A stretch of DNA of 64,000 nucleotides. Origin: Xenococcus sp. MO_188.B8 (GTDB lineage: Bacteria > Cyanobacteriota > Cyanobacteriia > Cyanobacteriales > Xenococcaceae). A program made the position numbers and the translations under genes. The DNA is taken from contig JASJDR010000019.1 in the NCBI GenBank assembly GCA_030065615.1, positions 1-64,000 of the forward strand. Reading direction: 5' to 3'. Positions 35,065 through 50,402 of the stretch are shown piece after piece. The notes beneath the pieces are model-generated. The model made no database searches. It saw nothing but the letters and a program-made list of their open reading frames with translations, and was not told the origin of the DNA. Each line of letters opens with the position of its first letter. Position 1 is the first letter of the stretch.

Positions 35065-36252
35065 ATGTTAAGTAATATCAGTACCAAAGAGACCCCAATA
35101 GGCAGAAGGCTAGAACGTCTAGAACAAGCAACTGCGATTGAAGTTTCTATTATTATGCCCTGTTTAAATGAAGCAGAAACTCTAGAAACTTGTATCAAAA
35201 AAGCCCAATGGTTCATTGCTGAAAACGAGCTTGCAGGAGAAGTAATTATTGCTGACAACGGCAGTGATGACGGTTCTCAAGAAATTGCCAGAAGACTTAA
35301 CGCTAGAGTAGTTAATGTCCCCGCCAAGGGTTACGGTAGCGCGCTTATGGGAGGAATTGCCGCAGCTAGAGGTCAATACATTATTATGGGTGATGCCGAT
35401 GACAGCTATGACTTTAGTAGGCTCAATCCATTTATTCAAAAGTTAAGGCAGGGCTACGATTTAGTCATGGGTAATCGCTTCCGAGGCGGTATTGCACCAG
35501 GGGCAATGCCTCTACTACACCGCTATTTGGGAAACCCTGTATTGACAGGGATTGGGCGCTTATTATTTGGCAGTCCTTGTGGCGATTTTCACTGCGGATT
35601 ACGCGGTTTTCGCAAGGATGCGATCGCCTCTCTTGATTTACAAACTACAGGGATGGAATTTGCCAGTGAGATGGTGGTTAAAGCCACTCTATATGGGATA
35701 AAAATTGGTGAGGTTCCCACAACCTTATCTCCTGATGGTCGTAGTCGTCCTCCTCACTTAAATACCTGGCGCGATGGTTGGCGACATCTTCGTTTCTTGC
35801 TGATGTATAGTCCGCGCTGGCTCTTTTTCTATCCTGGTATTTTCTTAGTTGTAGCAGGATTCTTGGGAACTTTATTGCTCTTACCTAGCCCCAAAGTACA
35901 CAGTTTGCTATATTCCTCTACAGCTATGACCATTGGATTCCAAATTGTCATTTTTGCCCTGTTTACCAAGGTATTTGCCGTTAGAGAAGGTCTCCTACCA
36001 CAAGATCGAAGTTTTAAAAGGTTATTTAGGTCTTTCAATTTAGAGTCAGGTTTGATAGTTGGCGTTTTGCTTATGATATTGGGAACTGGAGCTTCAGTTT
36101 ATGCCTTTGGTATTTGGGGACAACATTCTTATGGTTCACTAAATCCAGCCGAAACCATGCCAGTCGTAATTTCTGCAGTTACTTGCTTTGCCCTTGGCGT
36201 TCAGGTGATTTTTTCTAGCTTCTTTTTAAGTATTCTGGGATTGAAACGGTAG
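35065..36252 (+). CDS. Dolichol-phosphate-mannose-synthase-like glycosyltransferase with membrane tail
   Basis: From ATG 35065 (AGAGGA upstream) the protein is 395 residues. It begins with a GT2 domain: VSIIMPCLNEAETLETCI, VIIADNGSDDGSQEIA, GYGSALMGGIAAARGQYIIMGDADDSYDF (DAD metal site) and FHCGLRGFRKDAI. Three or four hydrophobic segments follow from about residue 255. This layout is typical of polyprenyl-phosphate sugar synthases such as GtrB/DPM-like proteins, which make undecaprenyl-phosphate-hexose for periplasmic GT-C enzymes; the membrane proteins at 40552 and 42800 could be its users. It lies 200 bp after the BcsA-like gene. Confidence 0.88.
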   Translation: MLSNISTKETPIGRRLERLEQATAIEVSIIMPCLNEAETLETCIKKAQWFIAENELAGEVIIADNGSDDGSQEIARRLNARVVNVPAKGYGSALMGGIAAARGQYIIMGDADDSYDFSRLNPFIQKLRQGYDLVMGNRFRGGIAPGAMPLLHRYLGNPVLTGIGRLLFGSPCGDFHCGLRGFRKDAIASLDLQTTGMEFASEMVVKATLYGIKIGEVPTTLSPDGRSRPPHLNTWRDGWRHLRFLLMYSPRWLFFYPGIFLVVAGFLGTLLLLPSPKVHSLLYSSTAMTIGFQIVIFALFTKVFAVREGLLPQDRSFKRLFRSFNLESGLIVGVLLMILGTGASVYAFGIWGQHSYGSLNPAETMPVVISAVTCFALGVQVIFSSFFLSILGLKR

Positions 36253-36417
36253 TCAACATAAGAGAGCGTGCAGCTGACAGAATTGTTGACTTGTCTTGCA
36301 TTAGAGATAACCAGCTGCTAATCTAATACTTTTCCGAGTCGATGATTTTTCTGTTTACGCTACGGATTTTAACTGAATAGCAAGATATCTAATTTAAAAT
36401 TTTTACCTGGCCAAATA

Positions 36418-37350
36418 ATGAAAAAACCTAACTTCTTTATTGTAGGACAACCAAAAGCTGGAACGACAGCACTTCATAATTTTCTAAGTCAGCATCCAGA
36501 TATATTTATGTCTGAATTTAAAGAACCTTTTTTCTTTTGTAAAGATTTTCATCAAGAGAGTGATCAACATTATGGTTTTCGCAAGTTTTTTCCTTTTAGA
36601 GATGAAGCATCATATTTAAAATTATTTTCTCAAGCTGATTCTTACAAAATTGTAGGGGAATCTTCTGCATTGTACCTTTACTCTCGAATAGCTTCTCAGG
36701 AGATATATAATTTTAATCATAAAGCTAAAATAATTATTTTATTGCGCAATCCCATTGATTGGTTATATTCATTACACAATCAATATGTTAATACAACAAC
36801 TGAAAATGAAAGAGACTTTACTCAAGCTTTAGCATTAGAATCTTTAAGAAAACAAGGAAAAAAGATACCTAATAGAGTTCAAGCTCCTTCCTGGGTATTT
36901 TATTTAGAAATGATTAAATATTATGACCAGATTAAAAGATTTTATGATCTATTTAGCTCTTCTCAAATAAAGACTATTATTTTTGAGGATTTCAAAGCTG
37001 ATAATCAAAAAACATATCAAGAGATTCTTGATTTTTTAGAGATTAATTCTAGTTTTATAGCTAACTATAAATCTGTCAATTGTAGAGCAAAACCTCGTTC
37101 TTACTTGTTAAATCAGCTAATATATAGTCCTTTAATTAGAAGTGTATCACAAAAATTGTTTACACCTAAGGCTTATGATTATATAGCAAAAAATGTTGTA
37201 GAAAAAGTATTATGGCAAAAAACCAATAAATCAGCAGTACCCCTTGAAATCAAACAACAGTTAGCAGAAAAAGTTAAACCAGAAGTAATTAAAATAGCAG
37301 ACTTTTTGAATACAGATCTTTGTCAAAAGTGGGGCTATGAAAATATATGA
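36418..37350 (+). CDS. Sulfotransferase (NDST/Sulfotransfer_1-like), tandem copy 1
   Basis: The 310-residue protein begins MKKPNFFIVGQPKAGTTALHNFL, with the PAPS-binding loop at residues 9-20, and has the 3'-phosphate motif KIIILLRNPIDWLYSLHNQY near 104-123. It is a close paralogue of the next gene, sharing the start, EPFFFCKDFH versus EPIFFSKDFH and the RKQGK..P stretch. No signal peptide is present. The coding DNA is more AT-rich than the synthase genes upstream, suggesting separate acquisition. Confidence 0.9.
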   Translation: MKKPNFFIVGQPKAGTTALHNFLSQHPDIFMSEFKEPFFFCKDFHQESDQHYGFRKFFPFRDEASYLKLFSQADSYKIVGESSALYLYSRIASQEIYNFNHKAKIIILLRNPIDWLYSLHNQYVNTTTENERDFTQALALESLRKQGKKIPNRVQAPSWVFYLEMIKYYDQIKRFYDLFSSSQIKTIIFEDFKADNQKTYQEILDFLEINSSFIANYKSVNCRAKPRSYLLNQLIYSPLIRSVSQKLFTPKAYDYIAKNVVEKVLWQKTNKSAVPLEIKQQLAEKVKPEVIKIADFLNTDLCQKWGYENI

Positions 37351-37404
37351 ATATAGCTTGACATTAAACTAAAACCAATAAATTAAGTATCTCAACTGTA
37401 AAAT

Positions 37405-38340
37405 ATGAAAAAACCTAACTTGTTTATTGTCGGACAACCAAAATCAGGAACGACAGCTTTACATGATTTTTTGAGCGAACATAGGCAAGTATTTATGTCT
37501 GGAGTGAAAGAGCCTATTTTTTTTTCTAAAGATTTTCATGCTGAAAGTGATAGTTATCATAAATCACGAATATTTTATTATTTTAGAACAGAAGAAGCTT
37601 ATTTAAAACTCTTTTCTAATGTTAATTCAGAGAAGATTATTGGAGAATCTTCTACGGGATACTTGTACTCTAAAGTATCGGCAAAAGAGATCAACAAATT
37701 CAATCCAAAGGCCAAAATAATTATCTTACTTAGAGAGCCGGCAAGTTTTTTATATTCTCTACATAGTCAATTTTTAAACATAAATGCAGAAATAGAGCGT
37801 GACTTTGTAAAAGCTTTGGAGTTAGAATCTTCGAGAAAGCAAGGAAAGCATATTCCCAAAACAGTACAGATTCCTTCCGCCTTATTTTATTCGGAAAGAG
37901 TTAAATATTACGAACAAGTTAAACGTTACTATGATATTTTTGATCCCAGTCAAATAAAAGTAATTATCTTTGAAGATTTTAAACTAAATAATCAAGTAAT
38001 TTATCAGGAGATCCTAGAATTTTTAGATATTGATACTAACTTTTCTCCTGAATATACAGGAGTGAACTTACGTTCAAGTCCAAGATATAAAATTGTAAAT
38101 CAAATTTTATATCACCCCATTTCTAGGGCAATTGCTTATAAGTTATTACCTCCAGAGTTTAACGAGTTTATCAAAAGAAATATTGTAGAAAAACTATTCT
38201 GGAAAAAAGATAATACTTCTTCGATTTCCATAGAAGTAAAGAATAAGCTCATGAAACAATTTTATTCGGAAGTTCAAATGATATCACAACTTACTAACAT
38301 AGATATGATTAAAAAATGGGGATATGACAAGCTAAAATAA
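37405..38340 (+). CDS. Sulfotransferase (NDST/Sulfotransfer_1-like), tandem copy 2
   Basis: The 311-residue protein begins MKKPNLFIVGQPKSGTTALHDFL and has AKIIILLREPASFLYSLHSQF as the 3'-phosphate motif; the aspartate-like position after the arginine differs from copy 1 (REPASF versus RNPIDW). It lies 54 bp downstream of its paralogue. Both would transfer sulfate from PAPS to a glycan or lipid-linked sugar. Divergence inside the binding motif suggests the copies have separate acceptor preference rather than being a recent duplicate. Confidence 0.9.
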   Translation: MKKPNLFIVGQPKSGTTALHDFLSEHRQVFMSGVKEPIFFSKDFHAESDSYHKSRIFYYFRTEEAYLKLFSNVNSEKIIGESSTGYLYSKVSAKEINKFNPKAKIIILLREPASFLYSLHSQFLNINAEIERDFVKALELESSRKQGKHIPKTVQIPSALFYSERVKYYEQVKRYYDIFDPSQIKVIIFEDFKLNNQVIYQEILEFLDIDTNFSPEYTGVNLRSSPRYKIVNQILYHPISRAIAYKLLPPEFNEFIKRNIVEKLFWKKDNTSSISIEVKNKLMKQFYSEVQMISQLTNIDMIKKWGYDKLK

Positions 38341-38377
38341 ATTTTTAAAACAAAAGTCAATAAAAAATAACCAAAAA

Positions 38378-39382
38378 ATGTATTTAAATAAAAAGACAAT
38401 AGCTTATTCTGTACTATCCCTAATATTAGGGTTTGCTTGTATATATTTAATTATTTACTTTACCCCAGTATCTCTGAAGGATATATACTTAAAATTCAAG
38501 AAAATAAATTTAAATTATATTCTACTAATTATTATAGTTACTCTTATCAATAACTATTTCCTCGCATATAAATGGAAACAAGTAATACAGCGTTTAAGTG
38601 AAAAACAAACTAAGTCACAGATTTTTTACTTATTTTATATAGTTCTTGGTGCTTTAGTTGGAATTATCATACCAAGACAATTGAGTATGCTAACTGTACA
38701 AAGTTTAGCAACTAATTTACATAAAGTAAGCAATCTATCTAATGGTTTTTTAAGTGCGATTTATAATCAGATATTAAATCTAGTAATACCATTTTTACTC
38801 GTGCCGCCGACGATTTTATTCGCCCTAAAATACATATCTCTTTCAGTAACAATTTTTTTGTCAGTGGCAATTGTGTGTATAGCACCTTTAATTATCAGAA
38901 AGTGGCAAAAACCAATAATAATATTTTTACTCAAAATTTACTATAAACTTAAGAAAAATCAAAAAGGTAACAAACCAGATTTATTAACAGAGGTTTCTAT
39001 TCTTAAACCTAGCTTTACTATTCATTTATATTGGATTACTGTCCTATTTCACGCATTAGGGATATTCAGGAATTATTTAGTTGTTATTGCCGCAGGTTTA
39101 AATATTAAATTATGGATTATTTTACTGGGAACCCCATTGATTTACTTAGCTATGCTTTTGAGTATCACACCAGGAAATTTAGGGATCATGGAATGGACTT
39201 GGATTGGAATCCTAGAACTTTATAATGTTTCTCCTCAAGATGCTGCAACTTTTGCTATTTTACAAAGAATTTTACTTACACTCTCAATTATTTTTATATT
39301 TATATGTATATCTTTAACTTTGATTGTTAATAAATTTTACGTAGCTAAAAACTCTCACAGATATGTGAAATCTAATAAGTAA
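38378..39382 (+). CDS. LPG_synthase_TM/UPF0104 family membrane protein
   Basis: The 334-residue protein has about eight hydrophobic segments and the family pattern: NNYFLAYKWKQVIQRLS early, GIIIPRQLSMLTVQSLA near 90, and PLIYLAMLLSITPGNLGIMEW near 255-275 (TPGNxGxxE). Members include the flippase-like part of lysylphosphatidylglycerol synthase and AglD-type proteins of surface-glycan loci. A role in handling a lipid-linked sugar is possible but unproven. Its stop abuts the start of the following GT4 gene with no gap, so the two are cotranslated. Confidence 0.83.
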   Translation: MYLNKKTIAYSVLSLILGFACIYLIIYFTPVSLKDIYLKFKKINLNYILLIIIVTLINNYFLAYKWKQVIQRLSEKQTKSQIFYLFYIVLGALVGIIIPRQLSMLTVQSLATNLHKVSNLSNGFLSAIYNQILNLVIPFLLVPPTILFALKYISLSVTIFLSVAIVCIAPLIIRKWQKPIIIFLLKIYYKLKKNQKGNKPDLLTEVSILKPSFTIHLYWITVLFHALGIFRNYLVVIAAGLNIKLWIILLGTPLIYLAMLLSITPGNLGIMEWTWIGILELYNVSPQDAATFAILQRILLTLSIIFIFICISLTLIVNKFYVAKNSHRYVKSNK

Positions 39383-40555
39383 ATGTCTATTGATACAGAT
39401 TCTAAACCACTAAAACTCTTAGTAGTTACTCACTACTATCCTGAACATCGCGGCGGTGTTGAAATTGTAGCTGGTAAATTAGTTGAATCTTTAACAGAAG
39501 AAGGGAAGGTAGAAATCAAATGGATGGCTAGCAACGTAAATTTGCATCCCGAAGGTAGTAGCGCACTCTCCTGTTTGCCTATGAGCTCGTCGAATTTTAT
39601 TGAAAATAACATTCACATTCCTTATCCACTCTGGAGCGTACCATCCTTTTTTAAACTTTGGAAAGCTATTCAATCTTCTGATGTTATCCACTTGCATGAT
39701 TACTTATATATGAGTAATCTCGCCGCTTTCCTTTTTGCCAAGATACGCGGCAGACCTGTTGTTATTACCCAGCATATTGGTTTTATTCCCTACAAAAGTC
39801 CTTTGTTTCGAGTGCTTCTTTCTTTACTCAACCGAACCCTAGGGAGATTTATACTTAAAAATGCTAATCAAGTTGTATTTATCAGTGAAGTTGTACAAAA
39901 GTATTTTTCCGAAAAAACTTGCTTTCGTCGCCCGCCATTGATGATTCCTAATGGAGTGGATACCAGTATGTTTTTTCCTTTAGAAGAGCAACAACGGAAG
40001 ACAATTCGCCAAGAGTTGGGATTGCCAGGAGAAAAACCCATTTTTCTCTTTGTGGGTAGGTTTGTTGAAAAAAAAGGATTACCTATCCTAAAATATCTTG
40101 CCCAGCGTTTTCGCTCTGTACATTGGGCATTTGCAGGATGGGGGTCTTTAGATCCAGAGTCGTGGAGTTTGCCAAACGTTAGTGTTTTTCGCGATCGCCG
40201 TGGAACAAAACTCGCTCCACTTTATCAAGCTGCTGATCTTTTAGTCTTGCCTAGCAAGGGCGAGGGGTTTCCACTGGTTGTCCAAGAAGCAATGGCTTCA
40301 GGTACTCCAGTCATGATAGGTTCCGAAACTGCTGAGGCTTATAGGGCTGCCAAACATCTGATATTTTCGGAAGACGTAGAGATCTTAGACGCAGTTGAGC
40401 AGTGGTCGGCAAAAATTGAGGAACTGCTGCAAGACTACTCTAGTTTAATTAGATTAAGACCGCAGGTTGCTGCATTCGCACGACAAAACTGGTGCTGGCA
40501 AAGCTGCGCCGAGCAATACTACCAAATCTTTAAGAAATTGACCGATAGAAGATGA
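39383..40555 (+). CDS. Family 4 glycosyltransferase
   Basis: The 390-residue protein has LLVVTHYYPEHRGGVEIVAGKL at the N-terminus, VIHLHDYLYMSNLAAFLFAK, RPPLMIPNGVDTSMFFP, KPIFLFVGRFVEKKGLPILKYL and the donor-site stretch LVLPSKGEGFPLVVQEAMASG. This is a complete GT-B, GT4 architecture. It starts directly after the upstream stop and ends with a 4-bp ATGA overlap into the next membrane protein gene, so three genes form a tightly coupled block. Confidence 0.92.
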   Translation: MSIDTDSKPLKLLVVTHYYPEHRGGVEIVAGKLVESLTEEGKVEIKWMASNVNLHPEGSSALSCLPMSSSNFIENNIHIPYPLWSVPSFFKLWKAIQSSDVIHLHDYLYMSNLAAFLFAKIRGRPVVITQHIGFIPYKSPLFRVLLSLLNRTLGRFILKNANQVVFISEVVQKYFSEKTCFRRPPLMIPNGVDTSMFFPLEEQQRKTIRQELGLPGEKPIFLFVGRFVEKKGLPILKYLAQRFRSVHWAFAGWGSLDPESWSLPNVSVFRDRRGTKLAPLYQAADLLVLPSKGEGFPLVVQEAMASGTPVMIGSETAEAYRAAKHLIFSEDVEILDAVEQWSAKIEELLQDYSSLIRLRPQVAAFARQNWCWQSCAEQYYQIFKKLTDRR

Positions 40556-42042
40556 AATTAATCAATAAAAATCTAGGTTTAGAAACTTTCCTGAAATTAG
40601 GAGCAGTAATTGTTTTAATATCAATTTTACTCAAAGCCATTATCGATGTAGACACAAACTATGATACGTGGTGGTATCATTTGCCATTTGCCGCTAGGAT
40701 TTGGGGAATAATTCCGCAAGAAATGTATCAGTTTAATGATGCTATCGAGAATCGTTTTGATGGTGTTCCTCTTTTGGGAGAATTTCTACAAGGATTTTTT
40801 TGGTTTATTACTCAACGGGTTCAAGCAGCCAATTTAGTCTGCTTTTTCAGTCTAATTATTTATCTTTACTTTCTCAAAGCTTATTTTCAAATTCCTTTAT
40901 ACCTCTCAGCAATCGCACTTCTTGCTATTCCTGCAGTTCTGACCCATGCTACCACCTGTTTCGTCGATTTGCCGGGAAACATAGGAGTTTCGATGCTGGT
41001 GATGATGACTTATTTGCTTTATCAGCGTCGGCAACTGCCAACCAAACTCAATCTTTTGGTTATTTTTCTCGCTGCTGCTAGTGCAGTAAATATCAAGCCA
41101 CACTTGCAACCTCTGACTTTTTTGCTCCTCTGTTTTATTGGGTTGAGGATTATCTGGCTGTACTTTACACAAGCTCAAGCGCCAAAAAAATGGCTGCTGA
41201 AAGCAATACCGATTTCTTTAGTCGCCTCTTTGTTGATTTTTGCTACACCAATAAAAAATATCGCCCTTTATGGTAATCCTTTTTATCCCATTAAGGTTGA
41301 AATAGCAGGCAAAGTTCTCAATCATACAATGGTTCCAGGTGCCTACAAAAGAGGTTCTCGACCGCAAAAATGGCTTCAATCGATCCTGGAAATTAACACT
41401 CCTAGTTGGTCAGCAGATCAATGGAATAGAAACGATCCTAAGTATATGGATCGAGGGGGTGGTTTCTTTGGAGCTTATGTTGTTTTTAACCTACTCCTTC
41501 TGGGATTTTTCTTTTTGCACGAGCAACTGCAAAGCAGGCACCTAAAGGAGGCTAATCCCTCTCGTGAAGCTACTCTTGCCCTTATCTTCGTGGTAATGAT
41601 GTCAGTGGTTCCTGCTAATTTTCCTCAAGGTCACGAGCTGAGATACTTTATGTACTGGATGATCTCATTAGTATCTATTAATTTATATCTGGTGTCTCAT
41701 TACGAGCGATCGCCAAACAACTTCCGTTGGCTCAGATCCAAGTATATCGGACTTGTGTTTGCCCTATTCCTTGCCATCGTCCTTTCCAAAATAGGATATT
41801 TCTATGCCAAACCAGTGTTCTACAGTCTCGACGAACATATACAAGCAACTGTCAATCCAGAGGTTATGAGCCAAATCAATCCAGGAGATGAAGTCTGTAT
41901 AATTGGCAAGGATGGGTTACTTCACCGTTTATTTCAATATGCTTCTGAATTTCATCCTGAATTAAACTATTCCTACTCAGTCAAAGGAGCACTCAACCCT
42001 AAAGAATGTGCAGGACTTGAAAAAAGATTCATATCTTTATAA
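40552..42042 (+). CDS. Polytopic membrane protein, GT-C-like
   Basis: The 496-residue protein has about ten hydrophobic segments. The first loop carries DTNYDTWWYHLPFAARIWGI and FDGVPLLGEFLQG; acidic residues in the first periplasmic loop are typical of GT-C glycosyltransferases using polyprenyl-phosphate sugars. A C-terminal soluble part (about 425-496) includes GDEVCIIGKDGLLHRLF. I do not recognise a named family. By context it may transfer a sugar to the polymer on the periplasmic side. Confidence 0.7.
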   Translation: MKLINKNLGLETFLKLGAVIVLISILLKAIIDVDTNYDTWWYHLPFAARIWGIIPQEMYQFNDAIENRFDGVPLLGEFLQGFFWFITQRVQAANLVCFFSLIIYLYFLKAYFQIPLYLSAIALLAIPAVLTHATTCFVDLPGNIGVSMLVMMTYLLYQRRQLPTKLNLLVIFLAAASAVNIKPHLQPLTFLLLCFIGLRIIWLYFTQAQAPKKWLLKAIPISLVASLLIFATPIKNIALYGNPFYPIKVEIAGKVLNHTMVPGAYKRGSRPQKWLQSILEINTPSWSADQWNRNDPKYMDRGGGFFGAYVVFNLLLLGFFFLHEQLQSRHLKEANPSREATLALIFVVMMSVVPANFPQGHELRYFMYWMISLVSINLYLVSHYERSPNNFRWLRSKYIGLVFALFLAIVLSKIGYFYAKPVFYSLDEHIQATVNPEVMSQINPGDEVCIIGKDGLLHRLFQYASEFHPELNYSYSVKGALNPKECAGLEKRFISL

Positions 42043-42799
42043 CTTCAAGAGATTCAATATTAGGAGTTCTTTCTGGAGAAGCAGGTAACTTTCCCTTATT
42101 GCAAACAATTCTGGGGTTAGGTTCTGTAATTTTGATCGTGATCGCTTTTTATCTAGTAGACGTGGGCGTAAATAATCTGCCAGTTAGAAATAGGCAAAAA
42201 GCTCAAAAATCAATACTTATTACTTATTACTTATTACTTCCGCGCAGCGGCACTAGGGGTATTTGCTAACACTCTATCTAGAAAAAGTAATCAACCCAGT
42301 GTTACCAGTAGTAAAAACTAGAAATTGAGCGATTTATGATTGCTTTTTATTGCTAACGGTACTTAAACAATTTTGACAGTCAAAATCTGATAGAATGCTT
42401 ATATTGATTGACTTGAGCATTATCGTTAATAGCGATCATGCTCATGAAAGAAGCCACTCCCTCAGACATGCCTCCCTGCATAGCTTAGAAAGACATTGTA
42501 TCCTGACTTCCTTACTCATCTATGTCAACACCTTAATTTTTCGTAGAAATTGGATTTTGACCCTACAGTAGTTCAATATTTTTGTTTAAGTCCCGTATAA
42601 ATTATGGCTCTTCTAGACTAGTTGTGATAATTTGTTAGCTAATAATTCAACAATCCCCGATAAAGTCAAGGAATGTAACAAAACAAAAATTGATTTTTAT
42701 TAGAATTGCATTTTTGTAATATTGTCAGCCTTGCTTTGCAAGGCTTTTATGGATTTATTTATATTATTTTGTCATAGCCACTCTAGAAGAACCTAAATT
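42043..42799. other. 757-bp spacer with an open fragment and a terminator
   Basis: Directly after the previous gene an open stretch without ATG (about 42057-42269) reads LGVLSGEAGNFPLLQTILGL then VILIVIAFYLVDVG, a membrane-like fragment I cannot identify. It ends in the repetitive ATTACTT tract. A terminator-like hairpin is at 42727-42745. No intact gene is seen. Confidence 0.5.
42727..42749 (+). terminator. Rho-independent-type hairpin AGCCTTGC-TTT-GCAAGGCT
   Basis: A perfect 8-bp stem with a TTT loop is followed by TTTTA. It lies 50 bp before the broken DUF6056-like gene and probably ends transcription from the preceding block. Confidence 0.65.
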
Positions 42800-44278
42800 A
42801 TGAACACATCAACTATAAAAAATTTTATGTTGTCTAAGTTTAGACAGTTTGAAAAATCTTACCTCAATACTGCACTTTTGCTTTTATTTATTGTTATCAT
42901 TCCTTATATATTTCTGGCATTTTTTTCTGTGCCTGCTTCTGATGATTTTGGTCAAAGTGCAGAATCTTTAAATCTAGGTATTTTGGGGTTTATTAAATAT
43001 CGTTATTTAACATGGAATGGTAGATATAGTTCCGATTTTTTAATTGCTTTTTATAATGTTATAGGACATAAATTTGATGACTATTTTTTAATTAACTTTT
43101 TCTATATAGTTCCCCTATTTGTACTTTTATTATATACAGCTTCAAGTTCCATATTCATTTCATTAATAACTGAATCCAAAAATTTTAAATTAAATTTACT
43201 TTTTGCATTGATATCATTGGTTTCTATTATTGTTCATACTGAATTGAATTCAACCGTATTCTGATTAGCTGGTGCAACAGCTTACGGCATTGCTAATTCT
43301 CTATTTATCATTTCAGTTGGAATAATTATAAATACCTTGTATCTTGAAAAAGACAAGTATTCAATACTGTTTTTTATAAATTTATTGCTTATACCATTGA
43401 TTAATGGTTTATCTGAAACTGTAATGGTTACTTATAGTACCTTTATATTATTGATATCATCTTTAAATTTAACTTTAACACCTTTTAACAAAAAGTTTTT
43501 ATTAAAAAATATAATGTATTTAGCCATAACAATTATATCAGCTTGTGCTGTTTATCTAGCTCCAGGTAATAGTACGAGGTTTGAGAAAGTAGCTAGTAAA
43601 TCATTGTCTGATACTACTAGACAGCTTCTTTTCTCCTTTAAAAATGCTTTTTTGTCAAGTATTCATCATATATGGACCTATATAAATCCCTTTTGGATCT
43701 GCCTTTTTCTTTTACTCTTATTTATAGTTTCTAAATTCCCTTGCAATCAATTGACAGCTTTTTTCAAAAGCAAAAAGGTCTTGGGGATAGTTATTACTAG
43801 TCTTGCTGCTTGTTTTTATATGTCGTATTTTGTTAGGTGGTATAGTTTAGGTACTATCGGACCCTTACGCGCTGAATCTACAAGTTATATTGTATTTTTT
43901 ATGATTACTATTATAATAGGATTGTATTTTGGATTAAGTTTAAATTCAAATCAATTATTTAAATATTTAAAAAATCAAAGAATATTTCTATCTTTGGTCA
44001 CAATTTTCTGTTTTTTATCAATTATTGTTAATAATAAAATGCTAATAAAAGAATTTTGGCTTTTAAAAAGTCACTATAAATACTATCAAAATATTTATCC
44101 TTTAGTCATTAATACTAAGTCAGGTAGCGATATAAAGCTACCACCTGAACCAAGAGTTAAAATATTGAGACGTGATGTCTATTTAAGCAAAGATAAGCAG
44201 TTTTGGATAAACAAATATTTTTCTAGATATTTCAAGTTAAATTCTGTATCTATATCAAGCGAAATTATTCAAAAATGA
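42800..44278 (+). pseudogene. DUF6056-like membrane protein gene with one in-frame TGA
   Basis: Two open stretches, 42800-43264 and 43337-44278, are in the same frame. Reading through the TGA at 43262-43264 (codon 155) gives one 492-residue polytopic protein. The N-terminal part has ASDDFGQSAESLNLGILGFI and LTWNGRYSSDFLIAFYN, the acidic-loop and W-GR pattern of the DUF6056/GT-C-like group. The junction reads STVF-stop-LAGATAYGIANSL, where family members commonly have tryptophan; TGG to TGA is a single change. It may be a recent nonsense pseudogene, a sequencing error or a readthrough site. Gene order suggests a periplasmic glycosyl or acyl transfer role. Confidence 0.78.
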
Positions 44279-44594
44279 GGTGTTGGGGACAGGTATTGCA
44301 ATAAAGGCAAAAATCCCCATCATACCTTTTCTGAGCAATAGTGATCGCTTTCTGCTTACTTACTTGAGTTAATTAGTTGATCGCCTGTAATTGATTCAGA
44401 AAACGGGTAATTCTAAAGTAAATCCAGGTAGAACGTTTTATTCTGAAAAAGTTGTTGGTAATGATAAAGTTTATCTTAAAGATTATGCTAATGAATCATT
44501 ACTTGTGTTGTGTCTATAATAAAGCGCGATCGCTCTAGTCTCCAAGAAAAAGCGATCGCGCTACTGGTAGTCAAAATAGAAAATCCTCAGAATA
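44279..44594. other. Spacer between convergent genes with a remnant and a terminator
   Basis: An open stretch without start, 44397-44519, reads NSKVNPGRTFYSEKVVGN and DKVYLKDYANESLL before TAA; I do not recognise it. A strong inverted repeat follows at 44523-44562. Confidence 0.45.
44523..44562. terminator. Bidirectional hairpin built from HIP1 arms
   Basis: AGCGCGATCGCT (44523-44534) and AGCGATCGCGCT (44551-44562) are perfect 12-bp complements around a 16-bp loop. It lies between the ends of the convergent genes at 44278 and 44595. Each arm contains the HIP1 core GCGATCGC. Confidence 0.65.
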
Positions 44595-46112
44595 CTATAC
44601 TGTTACTCCTGGGATTATAGCGTCTGTAGTATCAGCACCAGTAAAGTCAGCGGTACCTATGCCAGTTGCATCAGTGAAATTAGACTTAATCAAGGTAGAG
44701 TTGCTAAAGTCAGCATTATCTACCTGTGCTCCAATAGCGAAACCATCGATAAATTGAAAGTCCATTGCATTAACGTTTCTTAAGTTAGCACTGCTCAAAT
44801 CCGCCTTTTCGAAGTTAGCTCCTTCAAGGTTTGCCCGACGGAAATTGGTTCTATTAGTTGTATCGTTTCCTATTGCCTCTTTGAAGTTAGCGCCAACCAG
44901 GACTGCATCTCTGAAATCAGTACCGATGATGTTTGTTTTCTCAGCGAAAACATTAGTCAGATTAGCTCCAAGGGTATCAGCGTCAGTTCCATCACGGAAA
45001 TCAGCCCCGGTTAGGATAGCCTCTGTCAGATTAGCGCCAGTCAGGTTTGCATCCTGCAGGATAGCTCCCGTCAAATTAGCACCAGTTAGATTTGCATTAC
45101 TGAGATCCGCACCCGTTAAATCGACGCCGCTAAGGTCAACACCAGACAAGTTAGCACCATCCAATTCAACCCCTCCGGTAAAGTCGGCTCCGGTGAGAAT
45201 AGCATTGTTGAGGTTGGCATTGCTAAGGTCAGCACCGGTAAAAATGGCATTGGTTAAAGTTGCATCTTCGAGGAAGATACCTTCCGCAGAAGCCCCTGTA
45301 AAATTAGCATCAGCCAGGAGAGTATCCGCAAAGCTAACTCCTGTCAGGATAGTTGGATTATTAGAATCAAAGGCACTAAAATCAGCCCCATTAAGGTTGA
45401 GGTCTTCGGCGCTAAAGTTGGTTAAATCTGCCCCCTTGAAGCTGACATTGGTTGCCGTCTCGCCTTCAGGTGCCGCAACATCAGTCCAGTTCACATTGGC
45501 AAGGTTGGCTAAATCAAAGGTGGCATTGCTAAGGGTAAGATCAGTAAAGCTGGCGGTCGTAAAATCAACGCCTGTGAAATTCGTATTGACGATGATATTA
45601 GCTTCGAAGCTAACTCCTTGCATAATTGCATCTGTGAAGTTAGCGTCTGTCAAATCAGCCGCTTTCAGACTAGCTTCAGTTAAATCTGCTCCTATTCCAT
45701 CTCCATTGCCATCGCTAAAATCAGCACCAACTAACAGAGGTCGCTCTGACTGTTCTCCACTGAGCTCAGCCTTGAACAAGTTGGCATCTCGTAAGTCGGC
45801 ATTGGTGAGGTCAATGCCATTGGTACTAATCTCCGATAAATTTACCTCCCGCAGGTTGGCATCAGTAAAATTAACATTCTCTAAGGTTGCTTTAAAGAGA
45901 CTGGTTGTCGGAAAGTTAGCACTGGGTCTGAAGTTGGCATCACTAGCATTAACATTTAACCAATTTGTTTCTTCAAAGTTGGTTCCTCTCAGCCTTGTGT
46001 CAATGAATGAAACATTGGTCAAGGTGGCTTTAAAGAAGTTAGAACCATTGAGGTTCTGACCATTAAAATTATTTCCAACTAGATCCTGTTCACTAAAATC
46101 AAAAACTGCCAT
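44595..46112 (-). CDS. Pentapeptide-repeat protein
   Basis: From ATG 46112, preceded by GGAG, the protein is 505 residues. Almost the whole length is A(D/N)LXX-type repeats such as ANLTGANLTGAILQDANLTG, which fold into a right-handed quadrilateral beta-helix. A short non-repeat head (MAVFDFSEQDLVGNNF) and tail (about the last 15 residues) are present. No signal peptide or enzyme domain is seen. Such proteins are abundant in cyanobacteria and mostly of unknown function; a few act as DNA mimics or scaffolds. The same head sequence recurs in the truncated copy upstream. Confidence 0.92.
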   Translation of the reverse strand: MAVFDFSEQDLVGNNFNGQNLNGSNFFKATLTNVSFIDTRLRGTNFEETNWLNVNASDANFRPSANFPTTSLFKATLENVNFTDANLREVNLSEISTNGIDLTNADLRDANLFKAELSGEQSERPLLVGADFSDGNGDGIGADLTEASLKAADLTDANFTDAIMQGVSFEANIIVNTNFTGVDFTTASFTDLTLSNATFDLANLANVNWTDVAAPEGETATNVSFKGADLTNFSAEDLNLNGADFSAFDSNNPTILTGVSFADTLLADANFTGASAEGIFLEDATLTNAIFTGADLSNANLNNAILTGADFTGGVELDGANLSGVDLSGVDLTGADLSNANLTGANLTGAILQDANLTGANLTEAILTGADFRDGTDADTLGANLTNVFAEKTNIIGTDFRDAVLVGANFKEAIGNDTTNRTNFRRANLEGANFEKADLSSANLRNVNAMDFQFIDGFAIGAQVDNADFSNSTLIKSNFTDATGIGTADFTGADTTDAIIPGVTV

Positions 46113-46533
46113 AACTATCTCCAAAAATAAATATTAACTGCAATAGGGTTTACGTTTAAGTAAAAACTAAGAAACACTGGTCACTGGGCTTTTATAGTTA
46201 GCCGATAAAAATTTAAAATTTAAGTCGATACTTTGACTGATTCGGAATGTATCTGGTGCTGTCTCATTGTTATCGCCACCAATCAAAGACAAATTGAAAA
46301 ATTTACCTGCTTTTCTGAACAGACTATTGCTGCCGTCTAAACTCTAGATATGGTCATTACTTTCTAAGCCTTAGGAACGAATGTCTCAAACAGTGAATCA
46401 GCATCCGTAATGTCGATAATTTCGAATTTCGTTGGGCTCAGATGGTAGTGCCTGTCCTTCTCCAGGAGGAAACCCAAAGTCTATCTCATCAATAGTGATC
46501 ACATTCGGCAGCATTCTCATCCTAAATGATGGA

Positions 46534-46638
46534 GAGTAACCGCCTTCGATCTTTGTTTGTTTGCACAAAGCTAAGGCCATTCAAATTTTGACCATCAAAA
46601 TTTTGGTTAATCAGAGTTCGTCTATCAAAGACTGACAT
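46534..46638 (-). pseudogene. Truncated paralogue of the pentapeptide-repeat gene
   Basis: From ATG 46638 the frame reads MSVFDRRTLINQNFDGQNL then NGLSFVQTNKDRRR and stops after about 35 codons. Its head matches MAVFDFSEQDLVGNNFNGQNLNGSNF of the downstream gene, so it is the 5' stub of a second copy that has lost its repeats. Confidence 0.65.
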
Positions 46639-47426
46639 AGCAAATTAAACCTCAAAAGAAAATTTAAAACTTTAGTTACTTATGCAGACAAAAGTAAGTA
46701 GTAACACAACACAATCTGTGCATTCAGACTTGGTAAATATTTAATGTACTTAAACTGGTAAATTTAATTAAAAGCCCAGGTAATTTCAGCAAGACCCGTA
46801 CTACTTGTTTTTTACACTAGTAATAATTACGGACAGTAGTACAGTCTGTCAACCTACAACAAAACAACCATCATTCATAGAAAATTTTCTATGTTTTCTA
46901 GATTACCATTGCTTTTTTGTAATGCTAGAAAATATGCATAGACTGACTTCTGTTGCTATTCTGTGACATGGTTTAGCGCCGATCATACCCTTTGAAAACG
47001 ATATATTAAACCTTCTAAATAAGCTAAAATTATAATTTTTTTTTATATTAAATTAGATTTATATAGTAAATTATAATCAAGTGTCATAATGTGACGGTAA
47101 AACTTTGATTAAAAATCTTTTGATAATCAATATAACGAATAATTTTTAACAGAAATTCCGAAATATGTTCTCAAAAATCTCATAGCCAAGAGCCAAAACC
47201 TAAGAGCCATATTAGTATTACTATTTAATTCATGTTTTAAATCAGCAACGCCGGCAATTCATTACAATATATTTTTTAGTGTATAGCTGTAGGCTCTAGG
47301 CTCAATACTCCAAGCATAAAGCGAATCTAAAGATTTAAAATTATGCTCATCGTAAGGATAACAATTATCGATTATTCAAGAGTGCTAGAATTCCTCTAGC
47401 AAACTTTGGGCAGATTACAAAACAGT
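46639..47426. other. 788-bp AT-rich spacer between divergent genes
   Basis: No gene is recognised. The stretch is AT-rich, especially 47030-47120, and holds the upstream regions of the leftward pentapeptide stub and the rightward glycosyltransferase gene. I see no strong promoter consensus, tRNA or long repeat. Confidence 0.5.
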
Positions 47427-48401
47427 ATGGCGACGGTCAAAAAATTAATTATCCAAATCCCTTGTTATAACGAAGAAGCAACCTTGGGATTAACTCTTTC
47501 TCAATTACCGCGCCAGATCCCAGGAGTTGAACAGGTAGAATGGTTGATAATTAACGATGGTAGTCGCGATCGCACGGTAGAAGTAGCTGAAGCTTCTGGA
47601 GTAGACCATATTGTCAATTTTGAGCAAAACCAAGGCTTAGCCAAAGGTTTCATGGCGGGAGTTGAAGCTTGTCTCAAAGCTGGAGCAGACATTATTGTTA
47701 ATACCGATGCCGATAATCAATATTGTGCTGATGATATTCCCAAACTAATTCAGCCTATTCTCGATGGTACAGCAGAAATTGTCGTGGGTGCCAGGCCAAT
47801 TCAAGAAATTAAAGATTTTTCTCCTGTTAAAAAATTCCTGCAAAAGTTAGGCAGTTGGGTTGTTAGAATTGCTAGCAACACAGATATTCCCGATGCCCCC
47901 AGTGGGTTTCGCGCTATCAGTCGCGAAGCAGCTATTAGATTGAATGTCTTTAACGAATATACCTACACTTTAGAAACTATTATTCAAGCTGGTCAAAGAG
48001 GGATGGCGATTACCTATGTCCCGATCCGTACCAACGGCTATCTACGTCCATCTCGTCTGGTAAAAAGTATTCCTGCATATATTCAGCGATCGATCATTAC
48101 GATTATCCGCATCTTTATGACCTATCGTCCCTTACAATTTTTTATGATGTTGGGGACTGTTCCTTTTACCGCAGGTATGTTACTTTGTCTGCGTTGGTTA
48201 TTGTTATTCTGGGAGATTTTTGGTGATAATCCAGCAAAACCTCGGGTTCCCAGCCTAATACTGGCAGCAGTTCTGATTCTAATTGGTTTTCAGCTATGGA
48301 TACTCGGTTTAGTCGCTGATTTGATGTCAGTAAATCGCAAATTGCTAGAAGATATTCAACTAAAATTACGTCGTAATGATTTGAACCATAATGAATTCTA
48401 A
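47427..48401 (+). CDS. Polyprenyl-phosphate-type family 2 glycosyltransferase with two membrane segments
   Basis: From ATG 47427 the protein is 324 residues. The GT2 domain has IIQIPCYNEEATLGLTLSQL, WLIINDGSRDRTVEVA, NQGLAKGFMAGVEACLKAGA and DIIVNTDADNQYCADD (DAD). DAPSGFRAISREAAI resembles the acceptor-loop motif of DPM/GtrB-like enzymes. Two C-terminal hydrophobic segments (about 235-300) anchor it. It likely transfers a sugar to a polyprenyl phosphate or a lipid acceptor. It stands alone before the prohibitin-like gene. Confidence 0.88.
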   Translation: MATVKKLIIQIPCYNEEATLGLTLSQLPRQIPGVEQVEWLIINDGSRDRTVEVAEASGVDHIVNFEQNQGLAKGFMAGVEACLKAGADIIVNTDADNQYCADDIPKLIQPILDGTAEIVVGARPIQEIKDFSPVKKFLQKLGSWVVRIASNTDIPDAPSGFRAISREAAIRLNVFNEYTYTLETIIQAGQRGMAITYVPIRTNGYLRPSRLVKSIPAYIQRSIITIIRIFMTYRPLQFFMMLGTVPFTAGMLLCLRWLLLFWEIFGDNPAKPRVPSLILAAVLILIGFQLWILGLVADLMSVNRKLLEDIQLKLRRNDLNHNEF

Positions 48402-48438
48402 ATTCTAAATTCTAAATTTTCTTGGAAGGGATTAGTAG

Positions 48439-48466
48439 TATGCATAATGTACTATGCATAATGTAC
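48439..48466. repeat. 14-bp tandem duplication TATGCATAATGTAC x2
   Basis: Two identical adjacent units, each holding the palindrome TATGCATA, lie 44 bp upstream of the prohibitin-like gene. Just before, at about 48391-48418, AATTCTAA-type units repeat three times. Confidence 0.75.
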
Positions 48467-48509
48467 ATAGTATAGTTCTGCTTTGTGATTCAGTGCTGTC
48501 TAAAAAATT

Positions 48510-49352
48510 ATGCGCTCAAATAATCAATTCAATCAATTTAACCAATTTAATAAATTTAATCAATTGGGATTGTATCTTACCGGAGGAATTTTTCTGTTAG
48601 TTATTTTGGCTTTTCTCAGACCATTCACGATTATCAATGCGGGAGAAAGAGGGGTTGTGATGCGTTTTGGGAAAGTTCAGGATACAGTATTTGATGAAGG
48701 GATTCATCTGATTATGCCTATTGTTACCACAGTTAAAAGAATAACCGTCCGCATCCAGAGAGACGACGTTCAAGCAGAGGCTTTTTCCCGAGACTTGCAA
48801 TATATCCAAACGGATATTGCAGTCAATTGGCATATCGAACCTACTACTGTAAATAAAATATTTCAAGAAGTTGGAGATCAAACAGAAATAGTCAGGCGGA
48901 TTATTACCCCTGCGGTTTCGGAAGTGGTGAAAGCTGCAACTGCTAAAAAAACTGCTGAAGAAATTATTGCTAAACGAACTGAACTGAAACAGGAAATTGA
49001 TACTCAACTCAGAGAAAGACTAGGGAGTTATGGTGTTGTTGTTGATGATGTTTCCTTAGTTAATATCGACTTTACTGACGAATTTGCAAAAGCGATCGAA
49101 GCCAAACAAATCGCCGAACAAGAAGCCAAAAGAGCTAGATTTGAAGCCTTAAAAGCCAAAGAACAAGCTCAAGCTGATATTAACCGTGCTCAAGGTCAGG
49201 CAGAAGCCCAAAGACTCCAAAGACAAACCTTAACTCCAGAATTACTTCAAAAACAGGCTATTGAAAAATGGGATGGTAAGTTTCCTCAAGTTTTAACAGG
49301 AGATGGTGCATTACCCTTTATTACTATTGATCCAAAAACTTTTAATAAGTAA
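48510..49352 (+). CDS. Prohibitin-family SPFH protein
   Basis: The 280-residue protein has a repetitive NQFNQFNQFNKFNQ head, one transmembrane segment (about residues 20-41), and an SPFH domain (INAGERGVVMRFGKVQDTV to about residue 205), followed by an alanine-, glutamate- and lysine-rich coiled coil (AKAIEAKQIAEQEAKRARFE). SPFH proteins form large ring or cage assemblies on membranes and affect membrane-protein quality control with FtsH. The head arises from a short imperfect DNA repeat (AATCAATTT-like units) and may vary in length. Confidence 0.92.
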   Translation: MRSNNQFNQFNQFNKFNQLGLYLTGGIFLLVILAFLRPFTIINAGERGVVMRFGKVQDTVFDEGIHLIMPIVTTVKRITVRIQRDDVQAEAFSRDLQYIQTDIAVNWHIEPTTVNKIFQEVGDQTEIVRRIITPAVSEVVKAATAKKTAEEIIAKRTELKQEIDTQLRERLGSYGVVVDDVSLVNIDFTDEFAKAIEAKQIAEQEAKRARFEALKAKEQAQADINRAQGQAEAQRLQRQTLTPELLQKQAIEKWDGKFPQVLTGDGALPFITIDPKTFNK

Positions 49353-49455
49353 CTCCTTATTGCGATCGCGCTACCCTAGAATTATCTCATGCCAGGGATC
49401 AGTCATAATATATAAAGAAAATATAAAACAGCTGAGCGTCACTGGGGGATTCAAT

Positions 49456-49851
49456 ATGGAATGTAAATTGAAACACCTAGATTTAATTCAGGGAGTTATT
49501 AATCGGATGGCTAGTAATTCCTTCTCATTAAAAAACTGGACTGTAGTTTTGGTATCTGCTTTGTTTGCTTTGGCTGCTAAGAATTCTGATACTGTTTTTA
49601 TCGCTATCGCTTTTTTGCCTGTTGCTGCTTTTTGGCTACTTGATGGTTATTTTCTGAGACAAGAAAGATTGTATCGAAAATTATATGATCGCGTTATCAA
49701 GCTAGAAGAAAAAGATATTGATTTTTCAATGAATACTACTGATTTTTCGGCTCATGTAAATTCTTGGTTACTTGTTTGTTTGTCCAAAACTCTTTTGATT
49801 TTTTATGGCTTTATTTTGGCAACAATAGTCATTGTAGTCATTTTGGTGTAA
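49456..49851 (+). CDS. Small membrane protein of unknown function
   Basis: From ATG 49456 (GGGGGAT upstream) the protein is 131 residues. It has two hydrophobic segments at about 28-60 and one at the C-terminus (about 105-131), with a charged segment FLRQERLYRKLYDRVIKLEEKD between. I do not recognise a named family. It lies 104 bp after the prohibitin-like gene on the same strand and converges on pgsA. Confidence 0.65.
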   Translation: MECKLKHLDLIQGVINRMASNSFSLKNWTVVLVSALFALAAKNSDTVFIAIAFLPVAAFWLLDGYFLRQERLYRKLYDRVIKLEEKDIDFSMNTTDFSAHVNSWLLVCLSKTLLIFYGFILATIVIVVILV

Positions 49852-49886
49852 ATCTATTTGCAGTTGCTTAATCTTTTGGGATTTTA

Positions 49887-50402
49887 CTATGATTTCAAAA
49901 CATAAATCAATCCAGAAACTATAGTTAAAATTACTGACAACCAGAAAATTATCAATCCAGACAGATTCCAAGGATTAGCTAACGGAGCCATTAAAATAGC
50001 GATCGCAATAATTTGCGTAACAGTTTTCAATTTACCCCAAATATTCGCTCCACTGATTTTAGTACTACCAGTTAAATTGGGGTTAACTCGCCATCCCGCG
50101 ATCGCCAACTCCCTAGCTAAAATCACGCAGACCCCCCAAGCAGGAACTAATTGTAATTCAATTAAAGCGAGCAGGCTTCCCAATACTAGTAACTTATCTA
50201 CCAGCGGATCGAGGAACTTGCCCAATTCAGTTACCAAATCAAGTTTGCGAGCTAGATAACCATCTAACCAATCTGTACCGGCAGCGATTACAAAAATTCC
50301 CACTGCCAACCAACGATTGGTTACAGTGGGATTTTCTAATAGATAGAGAATAAAAGGTAATCCAAAAAGACGAGATAAAGTAATCCAGGTAGGAAGATTC
50401 AT
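49887..50402 (-). CDS. pgsA: CDP-diacylglycerol--glycerol-3-phosphate 3-phosphatidyltransferase
   Basis: From ATG 50402 (MNLPTWITLSRLFG, the usual family start) the protein is 171 residues; the frame extends to 50432. The CDP-alcohol phosphotransferase motif is complete: D44-x2-DG-x2-AR-x8-G-x3-D65-x3-D69 (DWLDGYLARK, GKFLDPLVDK). With about five membrane segments it makes phosphatidylglycerolphosphate, precursor of phosphatidylglycerol, which is essential for cyanobacterial photosystems. It lies 65 bp downstream of a sugar-phosphate transferase gene on the same strand. Confidence 0.95.
   Translation of the reverse strand: MNLPTWITLSRLFGLPFILYLLENPTVTNRWLAVGIFVIAAGTDWLDGYLARKLDLVTELGKFLDPLVDKLLVLGSLLALIELQLVPAWGVCVILARELAIAGWRVNPNLTGSTKISGANIWGKLKTVTQIIAIAILMAPLANPWNLSGLIIFWLSVILTIVSGLIYVLKS

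Follow-up and report, generated by a model that had tools for sequence, protein, structure and literature searches.

A DUF6056 membrane protein gene in Xenococcus sp. MO_188.B8, probably inactivated by a tryptophan-to-TGA change, with a MITE against its start codon

The DUF6056 gene at 42800..44278 (+) of the window, by which we mean the whole 64,000-nucleotide stretch analysed here, is best explained as a recent pseudogene: we give a probability of about 0.8 to the view that a tryptophan codon was turned into TGA in a gene whose start is abutted by a MITE. On the best reading, this pseudogene sits in a low-GC surface-glycan island and its leader has been displaced by the MITE. A pseudogene with an adjoining MITE is most likely ordinary in kind: bacterial nonsense pseudogenes likewise show one premature stop, arisen by transition at a conserved tryptophan, in an otherwise intact coding sequence, and nothing in kind separates the window gene from them, the MITE against its start codon being an additional feature.

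The gene encodes a multi-span membrane protein of the DUF6056 family (PF19528) in a frame of 492 codons, internal TGA included, which runs from the ATG at 42800 to a terminal TGA at 44276-44278. Its sole internal stop is the TGA at codon 155 (43262..43264, +; context ACC GTA TTC TGA TTA GCT GGT), and a scan of 42800-44278 found no further stop and no frameshift. The first-pass annotation had described one TGA inside a 492-codon frame with both halves in the same frame, which the frame check and the family match confirm. When the TGA is translated as a residue, the frame in its entirety gives a PF19528 match over residues 38-487 (E 2.9e-13; 49.8 bits, with a cut-off of 27; model positions 21-441 of 442), which places the protein in the DUF6056 family; the part after the stop matches by itself (E 8.2e-12), and the part before it, taken by itself, stays below the Pfam cut-off for this family. 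Each part aligns end to end with an intact paralogue on contig C72 of the same genome, and a separate genome search also flagged the 42800-44278 locus as containing one TGA. Two separate genes sharing a frame can be rejected because one family match and one paralogue cross the junction. The other same-frame neighbours in the 64-kb window are tandem genes with TAA between them, and among the window genes the DUF6056 gene alone is split in this way. A single-sequence structure prediction reached a mean pLDDT of 45.6, too low to be of use, and DUF6056 is named by no paper in the literature searched.

The interrupted codon corresponds to a tryptophan wherever the comparison is sound. The C72 paralogue, 52% identical and uninterrupted, reads VFWLAGGTAYG where the window gene reads VF(TGA)LAGATAYG, and two remoter cyanobacterial homologues, in genomes G594 and G602 (about 25% identical), also carry Trp at this column (FYWLNGAFYY); the wider homologue search covered 389 genomes of the order, and both of these homologues come from one genus. 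The premature stop thus faces a sense codon in all three. The three remotest members (17-20% identity) are without the Trp, in an alignment that is doubtful at this column. A tryptophan had been expected at the junction by the first-pass annotation, which had asked for a homologue alignment, and the expectation holds for all homologues that align well. The paralogue is the sole close relative: scans of genome contigs and viral contigs, tblastn against plasmids and megablast of the locus surroundings returned none, and the gene was found in none of the other relatives' genomes searched, hence no stop-free orthologue of the locus.

How the gene may have been lost can be outlined from these comparisons. 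A G-to-A transition would have converted the Trp codon to TGA, a kind of change to which the gene remains exposed, as 12 of the 21 transition routes to a stop still left in it are at Trp codons. Translation would then end at a 154-residue stub of the 492, two thirds of the protein would be missing, and the polytopic DUF6056 protein would presumably lose its function. The next in-frame ATG past the stop lies at about codon 209, which makes a useful restart unlikely. Past constraint, measured against the paralogue, is equal on the two sides of the stop (NG86 dN/dS about 0.33 each; dN 0.39 and 0.38, dS 1.18 and 1.17); with dS near saturation only this equality is informative, and it indicates that the stop is younger than the paralogue split. 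Since the coding sequence is otherwise intact, the gene was either lost very recently or not lost at all. Among the explanations put forward in the first-pass annotation, the best fit is a Trp codon recently mutated to a stop, given the tryptophan in the paralogue and in two cyanobacterial homologues. Its further remark that there is no other damage stands for the coding sequence, free of any other stop or frameshift, and fails for the locus, where a MITE abuts the start codon.

This repeat, 188 bp long (42606..42793, +; ends GGCTCTTCTAGA...TCTAGAAGAACC), lies directly 5' of the start codon and is an ISL3-type MITE, an identification that follows from its inverted ends, its 8-bp duplications, ends matching those of an ISL3 remnant in the same genome and a published counterpart in Microcystis. 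It is short and non-coding, and its terminal inverted repeats share 11 of their first 12 bases. The target-site duplication TAAATTAT is found at 42598..42605 (+) and again at 42794..42801 (+), the right copy extending two bases into the start codon at 42800. Like the window copy, three others (L021, L022 and L026) have a perfect 8-bp duplication, and in L023 it agrees at 7 of 8 bases; of the 63,780 positions of the window, 3 (4.7e-5) show an equal 8-mer at the MITE spacing. Several full or partial copies lie on other contigs of the genome, and matches in other genomes of the family cover the element end to end, bases 1 to 188; collections of plasmids and phages gave no match. The ends are shared with an ISL3 element, as GGCTCTTCTAGACTA and GGCTCTCCTAGACTG flank a fragment of PF01610 (ISL3) on contig C70 (L050). 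This element is itself a remnant, about 750 bp at positions 1154-1904 of L050, which carries the terminal inverted repeats of the MITE; it is probably related to whichever element mobilised the MITE.

Such an element is not unprecedented: a published MITE of Microcystis aeruginosa is 187 nt long, has 8-nt direct repeats and was probably mobilised by ISL3 (PMC11448079). By that published description, the two resemble each other, without this implying family identity, in length (187 vs 188 nt), in the first bases of both ends (GGCTCTTC), in the 8-bp direct repeats, in the presence of an ISL3 transposase with matching ends in the genome and in a strand that folds mostly into one long stem; they differ in that the Microcystis end continues with G (GGCTCTTCG) and the window end with T (GGCTCTTCTAGA), and in their hosts. 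A terminator or leader RNA was rejected for the repeat, since inverted ends and target duplications mark a MITE, and Rfam found no RNA in 36000-50000. On our reading an ISL3-mobilised MITE inserted, in an event separate from the stop, at positions -6 to +2 of the reading frame, leaving the ATG in place and pushing the original promoter and leader of the gene 196 bp away. The former leader now indeed lies 196 bp farther upstream, and the coding sequence looks untouched because the duplication rebuilt the ATG. The MITE would be expected to lower expression and to relax selection. It might also give the gene a promoter rather than take one away, and a promoter-consensus scan found no excess of promoter-like sites. 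The MITE may have come first, silencing the gene and letting the stop drift in, or it may have come later.

The draft genome comprises 8.26 Mb in 354 contigs, and its gene content and repeats such as GCGATCGC point to a cyanobacterium. Upstream of the DUF6056 gene, 36418..42042 (+) encodes two sulfotransferases, an LPG_synthase_TM-type membrane protein, a group-1 (GT4) glycosyltransferase and a further, unassigned membrane protein, a surface-glycan context; judging by these neighbours and its family, the DUF6056 protein probably takes part in surface-glycan assembly as a membrane enzyme. GC content is 29-31% in 36001-40000 and 42001-44000 and about 38% around them, and these stretches, which hold two sulfotransferases, a membrane protein and the DUF6056 gene, are probably an acquired glycan island. 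A contaminant origin of the locus was rejected as improbable, since copies of its MITE lie on many other contigs of the genome and its paralogue on C72. The roughly 550 bp at 42043-42597 are devoid of an intact gene; within them, roughly 60 codons (RDSILGVLSGEAGNFPLLQTILGLGSVILIVIAFYLV...) resemble a gene remnant, for which no Pfam family matched, and a short TACTTAT tandem repeat lies at 42214-42239. Beside the C72 paralogue, a GT2 gene (L017:11382-11717, equal to G000 C72:21381-21716) is truncated at 111 aa, its Pfam match stopping at 87 of 168 and the bases after it looking non-coding; a repeated stretch (approximately TACTGCAGAGTATTTTCTCTTAATGAATTAAAT) occurs on both sides of this DUF6056/GT2 pair.

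Should the cell in fact have TGG and an intact gene, the stop would be a consensus sequencing or assembly error. A single base difference in an otherwise intact coding sequence would suffice, in a draft whose 354 contigs come with an estimated contamination of 4.61. Against this, a stop is absent from all 43 GT2 domains found in this assembly, by counts that rest on family searches, and the 64-kb window has no other split gene, so that errors do not seem to be widespread in the assembly. The MITE next to the start codon is moreover an independent sign of a disturbed locus. We therefore consider such an error unlikely. Alternatively, the full protein could still be made by UGA readthrough, as the first-pass annotation had also proposed, or by recoding, with Trp or Sec inserted: UGA is the leakiest stop (PMC5289835), and here a single clean TGA falls at a Trp position. 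Yet the stop is followed by U, a UGA-U context tied to low readthrough in work on E. coli and yeast (PMC5289835); the sole tRNA-Trp found by its anticodon-loop pattern has the ordinary CCA anticodon; all matches to the Rfam tRNA-Sec model fall below the cut-off, the eight examined being ordinary tRNAs; the RNA downstream of the stop has no significant structure (z -0.40); and the homologues carry Trp at this position, neither Sec nor Cys. TGA is also used as a terminator in the window, where it ends 7 of 43 long ORFs, namely the DUF6056 gene and 6 of the 42 others. With neither a dedicated tRNA nor a stimulatory structure found, programmed recoding receives no support and readthrough is highly improbable; an altered genetic code is rejected in view of the other genes that terminate in TGA and of the CCA anticodon in the tRNA-Trp found.

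The first-pass annotation had also raised phase-like switching, in which a surface-glycan gene would be turned on and off by reversible mutation. The neighbouring surface-glycan genes are in keeping with this idea, as is a second DUF6056 homologue with a single Trp-to-stop change: the G594 gene (L041/L045, G594:C1:2641495-2642946), in a genome assembled as one contig, has one in-frame TAG at a Trp codon, where its intact G602 relative, 87% identical to it, has Trp. However, the site in the window gene has no simple repeat, homopolymer or invertible segment of the kind found in phase-variable genes, a point transition corresponds to no known switching mechanism here, and the stop and its position differ between the two genomes, TGA in the window gene and TAG elsewhere in the G594 homologue. 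Switching is accordingly unsupported, and we regard it as scarcely credible. The G594/G602 pair (dN 0.063, dS 0.216) is under purifying selection overall, for which reason the G594 TAG is taken to be recent too, and its single Trp-to-stop change means that such loss occurs in the DUF6056 family. A single Trp-to-stop is thus present in 2 of 4 near-full-length homologues, a suggestive proportion in a tiny sample that comes from a search reading through stops. That cyanobacterial DUF6056 glycan genes are repeatedly shut off in this way as a selected surface change, for instance under phage pressure, seems to us quite improbable; the two broken genes may reflect merely the easy loss of accessory glycan genes.

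The recent pseudogene that we favour amounts to one decaying accessory gene and a small mobile element, and as it stands it has little significance. It does carry a caution, that an isolated in-frame TGA should not be taken as recoding before its flanks are inspected, and the MITE is of use in tracing element activity in this genome. Recurrent loss of DUF6056 genes, if upheld in a larger sample, would point to selection for losing certain surface-glycan genes.
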